Shown: piece after piece, positions 3,833 to 61,322 of the stretch
How the letters are laid out: each line of letters starts with the position of its first letter
Numbering within the stretch: the first letter of the stretch is position 1
Origin: Segatella oris
Lineage (GTDB): Bacteria > Bacteroidota > Bacteroidia > Bacteroidales > Bacteroidaceae
Length of the DNA stretch: 64,000 nucleotides
Direction of reading: 5' to 3'
Assembly: GCF_900637655.1 (NCBI RefSeq)
Contig: NZ_LR134384.1
Span: 1,612,001 to 1,676,000 of the forward strand
The notes under the pieces: generated by a model
Databases searched by the model: none
What the model saw: the letters and a program-made list of their open reading frames with translations, nothing else
What the model was told of the DNA's origin: nothing
Position numbers and translations under genes: made by a program

Positions 3833-3885
3833 TGATGTTTTTGTGAAATCATTTTGCAGAACAATGCCTATTGGATTGCGTTGCA

Positions 3886-3973
3886 ATCTGCGTCAAGTCA
3901 CGCTGTAATCTGCATCAAATGACATGGTCATCTGCGTCACTTTACCGCCTCATCTGCGTCACTTTGCAAGTCA
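3886..3973 (+). repeat. 22-bp-period intergenic repeat array A
   Basis: Four units begin at 3886, 3908, 3930 and 3952, exactly 22 bases apart. Each starts ATCTGCGTCA or ATCTGCATCA and then diverges. It lies in the 482-base gap between the adenosyltransferase and the protease gene. The same register and core recur at five other gaps in this window. There are no unique spacers and no coding potential. Confidence 0.8.
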
Positions 3974-4173
3974 TTATGTATCAGTCAATTATACGTTTAC
4001 ATTTTAATAATCCGACAGGGAAATGTTGATTGCTCGTCGACTTTCATCTTTCAAAGTATATTAAGAATACATAGAACAACTTAATATGACTTGCTGGTTT
4101 GATGATGATGCCAAGTTTAATGCTGCTGATTAATAAGTGTAAAAATAAAAAAAGAGTCGTTTAAGAGCCGTTA

Positions 4174-6507: not shown

Positions 6508-7560
6508 TTATTTAATATGCATCACCCAACAATCAGCAAACTCCGCTTTGTTGTTGAGTTTATTGACAATATTGCGTGCCTCTCGTTCTGAAGCATATTC
6601 TCCATAAATGACTTTTGTGCGGTTGTTCTGTGTAAGCACGCCTGCTTCTGTGTAACCTTTACGATGAAGCTCACGCACAAAAAGCTTTGCATTCTTGCGA
6701 GTAACTCTGCTGGCCAGCACAATGCAGTAGTAGTTCTTGGGTGCGGCTGCCGGAATGAGGTCTGCTTTTATCTTGTTATTGTCTGCAGTCTGCTTTTGTT
6801 GTACAGTTTCAACGGCTTTCTTAGTTATATCTTTTGTGATATGAGTTGTCGCATTTCCTATAGTCACATCCTTGGGCATGATATATGTAAGAAAGTCTGT
6901 ATCGATTTTGTTTCCAGTCATAGTTGCTATGTCTCCATTACCCAAAGACGAGGGTAACAACAAGAATACCAATATGGCAATACATGCAATGGCGATGTTT
7001 CTTACTACGCTTCGGCGAATAGTATAAGCCTCTTCTTCTTTTTCTTCGCCATTGGCGGTTGTGTTGAAATCTAAGAGCTGTGCTTTTGGTTGCGGCGCTA
7101 CAATGTTCACCTCCTGTTCGGTTTCAAACGTTTCCACAGCATCTAATCGTTTGAATTCAAAGCAACTAAGTCCATAAAGGGCAGGAGTGAGGAGTCCGGC
7201 TTCACAAGGTTCGAAAGTATAGTGCCCCTCATCATTGATAAATAGAGTGCCTAAGTCTTTCAACTCGTATTTACCTTCTCTCTCAAGTATTTGCTTCATT
7301 TCTTCTGTTTCCTGCTCTATGCGACACAATGCTTCTGGATAACTGATATCGTAAGCCTCAACATAGGATTGTGCAAGAAGAGAATCGTTGATTTTAAGAA
7401 GGGGATTAAAGCCGACAGTTCGTGTTGGCGGAAGAAACGAAAAGTCTCTCTCGTCAAAACGCGCAGCCGTATAATGTGCCATAAATCCACCGAAAGCAGG
7501 GATTATGACACAGTCATTTGTGAGCAAAAGTATTTCTATATGTCTTTCTAACTCTATCAC
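6508..7560 (-). CDS. HU-CCDC81-like and SPOR-domain membrane protein
   Basis: A 350-residue protein with three parts. Residues 1-140 look like the tandem bacterial HU-CCDC81 domains (start MIELERHIEILLLTNDCVIIPAFGGF). A single hydrophobic segment near residues 188-206 follows a basic RRSVVRN stretch, so the HU part should be cytoplasmic. The C-terminal 75 residues (YYCIVLASRVTRKNAKLFVRELHRKGY...) form a SPOR domain, which binds denuded septal peptidoglycan in known cases. The combination suggests a link between the division site and a DNA-binding-like or protein-binding fold inside the cell. The start at 7560 lies just downstream of a full consensus promoter. Confidence 0.85.
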   Translation of the reverse strand: MIELERHIEILLLTNDCVIIPAFGGFMAHYTAARFDERDFSFLPPTRTVGFNPLLKINDSLLAQSYVEAYDISYPEALCRIEQETEEMKQILEREGKYELKDLGTLFINDEGHYTFEPCEAGLLTPALYGLSCFEFKRLDAVETFETEQEVNIVAPQPKAQLLDFNTTANGEEKEEEAYTIRRSVVRNIAIACIAILVFLLLPSSLGNGDIATMTGNKIDTDFLTYIMPKDVTIGNATTHITKDITKKAVETVQQKQTADNNKIKADLIPAAAPKNYYCIVLASRVTRKNAKLFVRELHRKGYTEAGVLTQNNRTKVIYGEYASEREARNIVNKLNNKAEFADCWVMHIK

Positions 7561-17349: not shown

Positions 17350-18086
17350 TTTGTATAGTTTCTTATTATTACCGCAAAATTAATAAAAAATAGGATAAAA
17401 ACATAGGAAATAAATCCTAAAAGCTTATTTTTTGTTCCTCTTCTTCCTTATAGATAAGCTATAATATCATGCAGTTAAGATACTTTCTTCCAGAGATATA
17501 GCGTGTAATGTAAGTTGCTTGGTTTATGATTCCACTACCAATGTGATTGGATGACAAATGCAGAAACCTCCTTTTTCTGTAAATATTCTTAATCAGTTTT
17601 TAACATATCCAGAGGAGACCAAATAGAAAAGCAGATGCCATAAAATGGAGATGTTTTTCTGATTTCAAAGGCTTTGGCCTGTAATCTCATTCATAATGTG
17701 TTGTAATTTGGCTTAAGTTACGTAGTCTTTTGAGTCAGATTGGAGTGTATTCCAATGCAGATTGCACCGTGATTTGATGCAAATTGCAACATCTTTCTGC
17801 GTGATTTGACATTGTAATTTTTACTTAATTCTGTAATAACTTGATAGTCAACAGATTATAAATCCGTAAAAAATAGCCTGTATGTAGAGTAGGGGAGAAT
17901 TCTATTTCAAATCAGTGAGCCTACAGAATGCAATCGTAAATATCTTTCAATTGAATTAACACATAAATCGTTTATCGGAATTATAAGGTTTAGGTTGCTT
18001 GTAACAGGTTGATGATGAAAGAAAGAAAACTATATATTTAGGGATAGATAACATTCAGAATATTATAATAAAAAACGCTAACTTAT
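17350..18086. other. Long intergenic region between kdsB and the MORN gene
   Basis: About 740 AT-rich bases between divergent genes, with no convincing coding frame. It holds the kdsB -7 box at its left end, repeat array C near 17.73-17.82 kb, and nothing else I can name. Confidence 0.6.
17728..17822 (+). repeat. 22-bp-period intergenic repeat array C
   Basis: Equivalent hexamers stand at 17736 (CAGATT), 17758 (CAGATT) and 17780 (CAAATT), each 22 bases apart, with a weaker fourth at 17802. The best unit contains TTGATGCAAATTGCAACA. Same register and strand as the other five arrays. Confidence 0.7.
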
Positions 18087-23014: not shown

Positions 23015-23265
23015 GAGGCTGAAATTCGGGAAAACAATGTTTCGGGATGCCCCGACGAGTTGTTTTCTTGAAAAATGAGCCGTTGGGATGCCCCGAAGCC
23101 TCAAAATCTTGAAAAACAAGCTTTCGGGGAGTCCCGAAGCCTTAAAATCTTGAAAAACAAGCTTTCGGGATGCCCCGAAGCTCGAAAAATCTGAAAATCA
23201 AGCTTTCGGGATGTCCCGAAGCCTCAAAATCTTGAAAAATAAGCTTTCGGGGAGTCCCGAAATAC
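23015..23265. repeat. 41-bp palindromic tandem array
   Basis: Six copies of a 16-base palindrome TTCGGG-nnnn-CCCGAA begin at 23041, 23083, 23123, 23164, 23205 and 23246, spaced 40-42 bases. The centres vary (ATGC, GAGT, ATGT) but the half sites are kept. The linkers are also conserved (AAAATCTTGAAAAACAAGC). It begins about 40 bases after the membrane-protein stop and ends 180 bases before an IS256 element. Confidence 0.85.
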
Positions 23266-33735: not shown

Positions 33736-33819
33736 CCAAGGGGAAGAATGCGAAAGTGTTTTTCCTTTTTTCGTTTATAGGCCGCGGACAGACAATGAAA
33801 GCATGCAAATGGCCTGATA

Positions 33820-33925
33820 ATCTAAGTCAGATTACATTCTGAAGTGCGTCAAATCAGTGTGTAAAGTGACTTGTTTTGCAGATAAATATGAGGCATATTG
33901 TACCATGAAATGATGCAGATGAGTA
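33820..33925 (+). repeat. 22-bp-period intergenic repeat array D (degenerate)
   Basis: Related hexamers stand on a 22-base grid at 33828 (CAGATT), 33850 (CAAATC), 33894 (CATATT) and 33916 (CAGATG); the position at 33872 has decayed. The second unit contains GTGCGTCAAATCA. Confidence 0.6.
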
Positions 33926-34403
33926 AATAATTTGTTGTTTACGGAAAAACAGAACAATGCAAGATAACTTTTATTGTAATGTTTTCTGATTATTTTTTAT
34001 TATTTTTTGGAGCGAGATAAAGAGTCAATCTAAATGAAATATCAGTGCAGTACGATATACCTGGAAAAGCTATATAAATCGGGAGAACAAAGAAATGTAG
34101 AACTTTAGAACTTCAAAATTTCTTTTCTATAGATAGATGAAGTAATTTCGTATGAAATGTTTCAATCTGTCGACAGCATTCTTTATAGTGGAAGATGAGT
34201 CGCAGGCAGGGTGTGCCTTTCGCTATGAAAAGACAAAAACAGAGGTGAAATAAACTAAAACTATGGTTTGCACAACTGATTTTATAGATTTTGTATGCCC
34301 GCAACTTGAGGGTGTGGGATAGTGAACTTGCTTTGTTTCGATGAAGTTTCAATAAAAAAAACAATTTCTTTTTGTTTTATTTTCCAAATTCATAAATAAT
34401 TAC

Positions 34404-43850: not shown

Positions 43851-43952
43851 GAGATGATGTCGCAATTACATGAATATGGTGAAAGATAGAGACTCTTTTA
43901 CTTGTCGCATATCATTCTCATTGATAATCAATTACTTGCAAACGTGTTTGCA

Positions 43953-44034
43953 ACTTGCGTCAAATCATGATGCAACTTGCATCAAGTTACGCTGCAATCT
44001 GCGTCAAAATGCGTGATGATTTGACGCAAATTGA
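43953..44034 (+). repeat. 22-bp-period intergenic repeat array B
   Basis: Units start at 43953 (ACTTGCGTCA), 43975 (ACTTGCATCA) and 43997 (ATCTGCGTCA), exactly 22 bases apart. At the fourth grid point (44019) the core appears inverted (ATTTGACGCAAAT). It lies in the 413-base gap between ftsK and the LolA-like gene, which otherwise shows only the lolA promoter. Confidence 0.8.
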
Positions 44035-52568: not shown

Positions 52569-53353
52569 TAGGTGGTGATTTAAAAAGAAAAGAAAATACA
52601 TCGTTGAGATGAACTATTATTGCCTCATCAGCTATTTCTTCATCTTGAATTTAACATAATCAGCCATATGGCAATGTATAGTTCCAAATTTTACACTACA
52701 TTTTGACTTTTGCTAAATTTATTTACAAATGACTTTATAATATTCACAGATTTGAAATGAAAGCATCCTAAGCTTTCAATAATGCTTATTTTTTAGCTCT
52801 TCACAATTTCTTGACTATCAGATTGTTATAAAACTTAAGGAGAAGTACAAGGCAAAATCACAATAAAAAGCGATGTGATTTGTGTTGAATTAAGTCGTAA
52901 TTTGTACCATTTCATCGTGTGTTTTGATGCAAATGGCAGTATGTTTTGAGTCAAATTGCAACGCATAATGCCTGAAGTTGTAAGCCAAAGAAAGGGAAAT
53001 GAAGACATTGAAGCTATAAAGAGGCTTTACACATGCGCTGAAAAGTGACTTTTGTTTCTATTTGGTGTCCCTCTGAAATGTTAAAAACGAGCAGTAATAT
53101 TTACAGAAAGGAAGAAATGTTTAGCTTTATATGCCCTTTTTCTGTATTGCAAGTATCTTCTTTAGTCTTATGCCTTGTTAAACCACTTCACCGCAAAGAG
53201 AGAGTTTTGTACGATTAAGATAGACAGTCATCCTTAAGGATGTTTTCAGGAAAATGCCTTTAATTATTGTTAAATTTGTTTTAGGATTACAATAAAATCC
53301 ATAACTTTGTACACAAATAAAGGTTTCAGTAATTTGAAGAATTGTAATCGTTT
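52569..53353. other. Long intergenic region after rnz
   Basis: About 785 AT-rich bases without a credible coding frame. It holds repeat array E, two -7-like boxes (TAAATTTG at 53271-53278 and TAACTTTG at 53302-53309, the latter likely serving the next gene), and a perfect 14-base palindrome CATCCTTAAGGATG at 53229-53242. Confidence 0.6.
52880..52980 (+). repeat. 22-bp-period intergenic repeat array E
   Basis: Grid positions 52886 (TGAATT), 52908 (CATTTC), 52930 (CAAATG) and 52952 (CAAATT) are each 22 bases apart. The best units read TTTGATGCAAATGGCA and TTTGAGTCAAATTGCA. Confidence 0.7.
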
Positions 53354-59467: not shown

Positions 59468-59472
59468 CATTG

Positions 59473-59541
59473 TGTTTTTCATGGTATTAGATTATTAAGG
59501 TTAAAGAAAAGATTGGTTGTCGTGAGGCAATCAATCTTTTT
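59473..59541 (+). ncRNA. Candidate small RNA, about 69 nt
   Basis: The transcript would begin near GTGTTTTTCATGGT, continue as an unstructured A/T-rich stretch with TTAAGGTTAAAG, and end in a terminator: AAAGATTGGTTG (59508-59519) with CAATCAATCTTT (59528-59539), eight-base loop, then TTTTT. It sits between dapA and rnpB. The 5' part resembles leader-like small RNAs I recall from Bacteroides; a family assignment needs a search. Confidence 0.65.
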
Positions 59542-59571
59542 AGTTTGCGATCAATAAAGTTATCTATTTAT

Positions 59572-59602
59572 TTTGTCATACCCTTATTTTCCTTTATCTT
59601 TG
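59572..59602 (+). promoter_or_regulatory. Consensus promoter of rnpB
   Basis: TTTG (59572-59575), 19 bases, TATCTTTG (59595-59602), placing the start of transcription close to the P1 helix at 59609. Confidence 0.88.
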
Positions 59603-59608
59603 CAGGCA

Positions 59609-60021
59609 GAAAGCAGTGTCCCGGCTCTGTTGCTGGCATAATTTCATATGCGAGAGGAAAGTCCGGGCAGCATAGGATACTCCACTTCTGAAAATAGAAG
59701 CTATTGGTGACAGTAGGTGTCGACAGAAGAAAACAACCGCCATAAATTGGGATACTGACTGGTTTTCCGGTCAAGTCTTTTTGTGGTAAGGGTGAGAAGG
59801 TGGTGTAAGAGACCACCAGCTGACGGGTGATCGTCAGGCTGTGTCATCTGGAGGCTGCAAGTTCATGTATACCGTAGACTGAGGGTTGTCCGCCTGAAGG
59901 ATTTCGAATCCGCTACGGAGGGTAGAATGCTTAAGCCGTGGGGTGACTCATGGATTAGATAAATAACAGGGCTTCATCTTCGTGATGAATACAGAACCCG
60001 GCTTATCAGGGCGCTGCTTTC
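59609..60021 (+). ncRNA. rnpB: RNase P RNA (type A)
   Basis: About 413 bases. P1 pairs GAAAGCAG (59609-59616) with CTGCTTTC (60014-60021). The universally conserved GAGGAAAGTCCGGGC (59654-59668) and ACAGAACCCGGCTTAT (59991-60006) form the catalytic core pairing P4. A T-rich tail follows P1. It is the ribozyme that matures tRNA 5' ends. Confidence 0.97.
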
Positions 60022-60963: not shown

Positions 60964-61072
60964 TCCTCATTTTTAATGATTTTCATTCAATGAGTTATTT
61001 TTCTTTTTATCCATCGTAATGGAAACTATGTTCCAAAATATTGGAAATCAAAGTGTTATATGATGATTTTTA

Positions 61073-61155
61073 ATTTGCGTCAAGTTATGCTGTCATATGA
61101 TGCTAATTGCACTGTATTCTGATGCAAATCACACGCTAATCTGATGCAAATTAAA
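61073..61155 (+). repeat. 22-bp-period intergenic repeat array F
   Basis: Grid positions 61081 (CAAGTT), 61103 (CTAATT), 61125 (CAAATC) and 61147 (CAAATT) are exactly 22 bases apart. Units read TTGCGTCAAGTTATGC, then GATGCTAATTGCAC, CTGATGCAAATCACAC and CTGATGCAAATTAAAA, linking the two core variants in one array. Confidence 0.8.
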
Positions 61156-61322
61156 AACTAACCTGAACGATATTGAAATTCAGGATAATTTTGATGATAA
61201 GCTATGTTTATTCAGATGTAAATGCGGTATGTATTGTGTTATCGTCTAACTTATGTTTTATTATATAATCATCATTATGATAAATTAACGATATATGAAA
61301 GATAACTTTTAATATATTCACC

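Follow-up and report, generated by a model that had tools for sequence, protein, structure and literature searches.

What is a row of short sequences, held in an exact 22-bp register, doing in the gap between lolA and ftsK (both identified by Pfam), and how far does such a register extend beyond this locus? The window in which it lies is the whole stretch of 64,000 nucleotides analysed here, i.e., bases 1,612,001–1,676,000 of the 3,168,212-base single contig of its own genome, hereafter G000. A sequence-only reading of the window had placed the cores TGCGTCA, TGCATCA and TGCGTCA and an inverted TGACGCA on a 22-bp grid, and the letters bear this out, the four motifs standing at 43956, 43978, 44000 and 44022, exactly 22 bp apart, within an array that our 22-phase model delimits at 43949..44033. 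The same reading had reported a recurrence in other gaps; according to the model all six gaps that it named do hold arrays of one 22-bp unit, the remaining five being located at 3847..3983 (HMM score 87.2), 17674..17820 (97.1), 33803..33934 (71.0), 52865..53002 (69.2) and 61071..61175 (76.3), with no strand assigned to any of the six. The earlier observation is real, and the phenomenon is larger than first reported.

The 22-bp arrays and their unit

The training set of the array model comprised the window and 20 samples of 20 kb taken systematically from G000 (464 kb in all); the model was symmetrised by the analyst, so that its mirror symmetry is partly built in; genes were called with a simple codon-usage gene caller. 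The model finds 44 arrays in the 464 kb, of ~6 units each and amounting to 5,788 bases in total, and 53 arrays in a contiguous 400 kb, which represents one region, picked for its many pair-pattern matches, and has some arrays in common with the former set. As 38 of the 44 arrays fall in 400 kb of samples, extrapolation gives ~300 arrays per genome. Two control models (one column-permuted, one complement-only) yielded no array in 200 kb, as against 24 with the true model. Exact matches to the pair pattern TTGCRTCAN14YTGCRTCA number 72 across the whole genome, and its reversed-pattern control has none; when the gap is left free between 2 and 32, there are 85 matches (control, 1), 81 of which are, by our own count, at the exact 22-bp step. 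Furthermore, the copy between lolA and ftsK and two sister arrays are independently listed at period 22 by Tandem Repeats Finder. The 22-bp arrays are not due to chance. They are not CRISPR arrays either, consisting of contiguous 22-bp units without spacers.

The consensus of the G000 unit, TTGMNKCAAATTRCNNNGYAAT, is identical to its reverse complement when read about either of two points separated by 11 bp (a palindromic 22-bp cyclic unit necessarily has two dyad points) and can be read as an 8-bp half-site, CAAATTRC, which changes orientation at every 11-bp step, 3-bp spacers lying in between. The dyad is no artefact of the symmetrised model because it is displayed by the free bases of the seed matches: in 24 such matches the sequence at the 14 positions that the pattern does not constrain is AATTACCTTGTAAT, with 3.29 of 6 complementary pairs compared to a column-permuted mean of 1.60, and none of 2,000 permutations was as high. 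Conservation along the unit, as described by the 22-phase model, is uneven (0 to 1.2 bits per position), a circumstance that fits a footprint and not a uniform decay, and the register is kept with only 10 phase breaks in the 5,788 bases. Among the ten symmetric pairs of positions in G000 units, seven lie below the Watson–Crick expectation and three exceed it by less than 2 of 205; positions 3–5, 14–16 and, weakly, 9–21 are correlated in a non-pairing sense, and the two halves of the unit are not fully independent.

The likeness between G000 units is 0.486 for non-adjacent units of one array, 0.486 between arrays and 0.541 for adjacent units; the greater resemblance among units of the same array that a neutral minisatellite should display is not found, non-adjacent units being as different as those of separate arrays. 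The “expanding minisatellite” offered by the sequence-only reading is, as judged from this unit likeness, a poor fit in G000, but some local duplication is visible and the arrays of two relatives, G092 and G025, are far more homogeneous, within-array likeness being recognizable by eye in the former and in much of the latter.

The contention that the unit always lies on the plus strand did not survive: the pair pattern matches 33 times on the plus and 39 times on the minus strand, and the unit is near-palindromic. An analogy with signals tied to replication direction fails as well, both strands being used and no half-circle split giving a strand contrast; the best contrast, over 63 arrays, is 7 compared to a shuffled mean of 14.3, with 498 of 500 shuffles equal to or above the observed value. 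The orientation flip proposed as a check gave no replichore bias, and a KOPS-like replication-oriented signal is rejected.

Placement, turnover and the period in the genus

Neither among the 44 arrays of the 464 kb nor among the 53 of the 400 kb is there one that overlaps a gene by more than 15 bp. In the 400 kb the median distances from an array to its flanking genes are 232 and 255 bp, and all four orientations of the flanking genes are represented; there is about one intergenic array per 8,000 bases in the G000 stretches examined. When occupied gaps are counted, merging close arrays in one gap (53 arrays, 49 gaps), their spacing in the 400 kb has a CV of 0.47 and 6% of the intervals are shorter than 4.9 kb, whereas random placement gives CVs of 0.86–0.94 and 42–46% of such intervals. 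The placement nulls made use of all gaps, of transcription-unit-like boundaries and of gaps of at least 300 bp; 0 of 5,000 shuffles matched the observed CV or the 4.9-kb fraction, and the fraction below 2.5 kb was matched by 0, 1 and 1. Distances measured from array to array in the same 400 kb have a CV of 0.55, the shortest being 744 bp. The best reading of these data is that the arrays are mostly at least ~5 kb apart.

The vicinity of ftsK, to which the sequence-only reading had drawn attention, is incidental. The ftsK–lolA junction was searched in 39 other genomes, 29 loci being fetched and 28 evaluated, and all 28, which belong to the genus, are array-free (gaps of 0–216 bp), so that only G000 has an array there and an ftsK-linked function is rejected. 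One of the 28 junctions, that of L140 (94 bp), contains a brief and imperfect repeat of 21/22 bp (lag 22, 0.66; lag 21, 0.61), which was not counted as an array. At the 52.9-kb junction an array is present in 0 of the 17 orthologues that keep the neighbour of ~305 aa; G012, which has a different neighbour, carries an unrelated 22-bp array in this place. Compared to those of G023, the ftsK–lolA and 52.9-kb gaps are longer in G000 by 300 and 604 bp, the latter gap measuring 1115 bp in the window vs. 511 bp, array-free, in G023. Because the orthologous junctions are array-free, the arrays at the two sites surveyed represent lineage-specific gains, and both sites display the lineage-specific presence at conserved junctions that would be expected of a MITE- or BrickBuilt-like element.

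Matches to the array model of G000 occur in 17 genomes, among them the window's own, out of 120 from the genus (36 candidates were scored in each). The exact G000 unit is found in 0 of 35 same-genus genomes and 1 of 24 same-order genomes, as isolated and seemingly fortuitous matches in 3 of 100 further genomes of a family sample, and nowhere in a named genome collection, which may omit the window's own records. Indeed, unit sequences differ from species to species in the genus sample, and what is kept is the period: a lag test on intergenic DNA detects lag-22 arrays in 10 of 17 other genus genomes, these arrays being absent in the sampled DNA, in several cases with few gaps, of G003, G004, G009, G010, G028, G031 and G034. 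In the genus outside G000, lag 22 accounts for 54 array-bearing gaps, each of the other lags from 12 to 43 for at most 6, and lag 44, the double of 22, for 35. The stretches of G092, G108, G001, G085, G020 and G004 (the last of which gave no array) had been chosen by their match to the G000 model; without the five model-picked genomes lag 22 is still found in 30 gaps vs. at most 3 at other lags. The model also matches somewhere in the genomes of G076, G084 and G034, the stretches of which were chosen independently of these matches, and scraps of G012 (340 and 335 bases) and G054 (422 bases) were left out of the analysis. The autocorrelation of intergenic sequence that had been proposed as a check reveals that 22 is the commonest repeat period in the sampled genus genomes. 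The density of lag-22 gaps is strongly different between species, the same count giving 5 in 400 kb of G023 and 26 in an equal length of G000. In stretches of 14–40 kb from 13 genomes of other families, lag 22 is found in one gap (G058) and other lags in 5. The intergenic DNA of G009 (L099 and L100) displays a 7-bp autocorrelation ladder (lags 14, 21, 28 and 35) in place of 22.

The turnover of sequence can be seen within a single genome. G025, which the G000 model does not match, has 17 arrays belonging to 10 unit families in 180 kb; a contiguous 140 kb of this genome contains 13 arrays, each of them in a called gap and neighbours often being of different unit families, with a spacing CV of 0.36 and a minimum of 5.3 kb, a regularity reached by 2–7 of 5,000 random gap choices. 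With a stricter cut-off (12 arrays, CV 0.47, 64–122 of 5,000) the effect is weaker. The palindromic character of the unit outside G000 is a tendency, not a rule: on average 13.5 of 22 positions are matched vs. 11.2 in shuffled units, and 18 of 57 arrays, one of the 57 being from another family, are palindromic at p ≤ 0.05, so that an “always palindromic” unit would be too strong a description.

A putative protein platform, flank modules and folding

If the sequence of the unit is free to change, what could be the reason for the conservation of its step? Our preference, which is tentative, goes to the arrays being a phased platform for a putative oligomeric DNA-binding protein of changing specificity, carried on dispersed elements. 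The array would be a row of one half-site (CAAATTRC in G000), alternately inverted every 11 bp, an arrangement that would place successive half-sites on almost one face of the helix; a sequence-specific DNA-binding protein able to oligomerise may fill this row as a phased nucleoprotein segment, the geometry of the protein–protein contacts setting the 22-bp step, and its DNA-reading surface and the half-sites would change together between lineages and between paralogues within a genome. The resulting complexes could serve the chromosome as domain or anchoring sites, or could exclude a second element within ~5 kb. A fixed step with a changing sequence is in fact expected if protein contacts set the geometry and the DNA code drifts with the reading surface. 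Furthermore, the spacing is common to arrays of unrelated sequence, which argues against sequence-specific crowding alone and in favor of either a chromosome-level role or an exclusion mediated by something that the elements share. Selection on spacing, as in a phased protein-binding array, had already been put forward by the sequence-only reading and is the best-supported interpretation, given the exact period combined with uneven conservation, the lack of Watson–Crick excess inside G000 units and the retention of the period in relatives while the sequence changes. On the other hand, the folding relative to the matrix null and the axis excess described below favor some base pairing, the ten unit sequences of a single genome would call for several proteins, a conserved positional role is not suggested by sites that are lineage-specific, and 7 of the 17 sampled genus genomes have no array. 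Rather unlikely is the more far-reaching proposal of a genus-wide chromosome-organising system in which selection would keep the geometry (22-bp, alternately inverted half-sites, with an array every 5–10 kb) and the code would turn over within and between genomes as diversifying oligomeric DNA-binding proteins and arrays co-evolve.

At least some of the arrays form the core of dispersed non-coding elements, the flanks of many arrays in G000 being homologous to each other. Family-I arrays have a T module beyond one end and a C module beyond the opposite end. At 17.8 kb the array is flanked, on the plus strand, by a T module (TGTAAA..TTTTTAACA..ACCAAATAGAAA; 17578..17634) and a C module (TTGATAGTCAA..CGTAAA..TTAACA; 17841..17978); the array at 52.9 kb is the core of an element in reverse orientation, with the C module at 52700..52820 and the T module at 53053..53106, both on the minus strand, the limits of all four modules having been set by eye. 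The array at 33803..33934 has a family-II flank resembling L007_766, L002_12452 and two L017 copies. The G000 sequence searched contains 24 matches of the T module at 24 arrays and 43 of the C module at 33 arrays, the C module containing TTGATAGTCAA and the GCGTATTTG..CAAATACGC inverted repeat, which can be matched on both strands; no match is farther than 85 bp from an array. Either module is present at 36 of 91 arrays, both at 21 and neither at 55. These conserved flanks suggest an element of ~450–500 bp, and two L006 arrays 6.8 kb apart (at 6583 and 13383), with 286-bp flanks 89% identical, are probably the outcome of a recent copy event.

In other species a C-module relative is found beside a clear array in G108 (E 2e-6), the units of which themselves resemble the G000 model; G028 has two (E 1e-5 and 6e-5) with no clear array adjoining (lag-22 identity 0.55 and 0.48), and in G025 and G012 the matches next to clear arrays are weak (E 0.05–0.7, one 6). 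Five short stretches of the same family and other genera were used in the module search only. G108 being the sole clear case, sharing of the C module between species with different arrays is suggested, not shown. The signal of simple flank motif counts is weak: outside G000, TGATWRTCA, CAAATAYGC and YTTTGTAAA occur 5, 8 and 3 times with an array (of 56) vs. 8, 2 and 4 times without (of 170), the corresponding values in G000 being 9, 5 and 3 (of 53) vs. 11, 12 and 5 (of 138). A C-rich interspersed repeat of the CCTCCCCCAGCCCCTCCCAAGGAGGGGA type is seen near arrays of several species (L003, L004, L020, L056 of G092 and L085 of G025).

The confinement of all module matches to the immediate neighbourhood of arrays, 21 of which have both, together with the relative in G108, the gap excess of G000 over G023 at two junctions whose orthologues are array-free and the L006 pair, would be accounted for by a non-autonomous mobile element having the flank modules as its working ends, a recombinase supplied in trans, a passive minisatellite as baggage and target exclusion of the transposition-immunity kind as the cause of the spacing. 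We consider this explanation unlikely. A passive minisatellite leaves unexplained both the fixed period over unrelated units and the position-specific constraint; inverted terminal repeats are not evident by eye, the aligned family-I ends showing no inverted repeat and resembling each other as direct repeats; no autonomous copy was noticed in passing; and 55 of the 91 arrays have neither module.

A role in nucleic-acid structure, as long or serial RNA hairpins or as cruciforms in supercoiled DNA, has a certain appeal; A-form RNA completes a turn in 11 bp. The folding of arrays is more favorable than that of mononucleotide shuffles (mean z −3.3) and than that of arrays drawn from the matrix (mean z −1.02 over 91, one locus being counted twice), a single hairpin is the fold of 14 of 91, and the copy between lolA and ftsK forms one long outer stem. 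Units tend to face inward, those on the left rightward and those on the right leftward (correlation −0.285 over 89 arrays, reached by 0 of 2,000 permutations), and a whole-array axis exceeds the 95% null in 14 of 88 arrays, 4.4 being expected. Folding, axis and inward facing speak for a partial global inverted symmetry, and these results are the main support for a structural role. In G092 the bases beside one dyad covary (A–T 20, G–C 14, G–T 2, A–C 0, after removal of a double-counted array), but the covarying units are partly local copies, and at the second dyad the outer pair is never Watson–Crick (A–C 18, G–T 12, one array being counted twice). The arrays at G092 loci L051–L057 are built from blocks of two half-site variants, GACTC/GAGTC and GGCCC/GGGCC, and some of them switch variant once near the middle. 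A structural role nevertheless seems quite unlikely to us: the symmetric positions of G000 units have no Watson–Crick excess, and a unit-level hairpin with compensatory change is rejected there, no such covariation being found, even if whole-array folding is still somewhat above null; only 14 of 88 arrays beat the axis null; arrays between divergent, convergent and tandem genes alike do not suggest a terminator; and an Rfam scan of the window at gathering scores returned RNase P, FopS sRNA and tRNA, none of them at an array. The FopS-family sRNA (RF04319) stands directly before the RNase P RNA (RF00010) at 59472–60021 of the window.

Finally, neutral minisatellites devoid of any role, with accidental period and spacing, would agree with the difference in density between G023 and G000 and with the non-conserved positions at the two sites surveyed, but are made very improbable by the distribution of periods in the genus, the spacing shuffles and the uneven per-position constraint.

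Known repeat systems and significance

Several known systems share some of these properties. REP/BIME sequences are intergenic palindromic repeats present in hundreds of copies in one chromosome; the arrays resemble them in being many, intergenic and palindromic, and differ in their 22-bp in-register organization, their species- and array-specific units and their ~8-kb spacing. Plasmid iterons and centromere arrays of the parC/ParR type are direct repeats with a step of 11 or 22 bp that an oligomerising protein recognizes, and the specificity of this protein varies among otherwise similar systems. The step is the same, but there the protein reader is known, whereas here one would have to be postulated, and a single plasmid site beside the gene of the protein contrasts with hundreds of chromosomal sites in G000. 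In transposition immunity of the Mu/Tn7 type the spacing of elements is set by exclusion over kilobases; unlike this, the spacing described here holds also between arrays of unrelated unit sequence.

A separate tandem array with a 41-bp unit (~5 copies, with a CTTTCGGGATGCCCCGAAG hairpin in the unit) is present at 23031–23261 of the window, and in the G000 sample set, window included, three gaps pass the test at lag 41. In Porphyromonas gingivalis the PgRS elements also carry 41-nt repeats, and 41-, 23- and 22-nt tandem direct repeats have been described in strain W83, the excerpted account giving no locations (PMC4596501). The closest parallel in that account is BrickBuilt, a minisatellite inside a MITE of P. 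gingivalis with 19 copies, a 23-nt unit and IS5-like terminal inverted repeats (PMC4596501). BrickBuilt and the present arrays have in common a Bacteroidetes host, a short tandem unit with conserved and variable positions and an always intergenic location, and its leader and tail modules round the repeats are reminiscent of the G000 flank modules (PMC4596501). The two differ in copy number (19 vs. ~300) and unit length (23 vs. 22 bp); IS5-like terminal inverted repeats are not seen by eye in the G000 elements, and the excerpted account of BrickBuilt is without inverted half-sites, turnover of sequence at a fixed period or regular spacing (PMC4596501). A search of open-licence papers returned no recognised description of such arrays in Prevotella.

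Repeats that keep their period and their genomic spacing but not their sequence find no match among the repeat classes compared, and the exact 22-bp step associated with differing sequences in several relatives points to what may be an unrecognised chromosome-wide system. Were the arrays occupied by protein, they would constitute a map, visible in the sequence, of kilobase-scale units of the chromosome, as well as a natural series of co-evolved protein–DNA codes; were they mobile, their spacing would record a long-range exclusion independent of the repeat sequence. Whichever reading holds, public genomes suffice to test the 22-bp rule.
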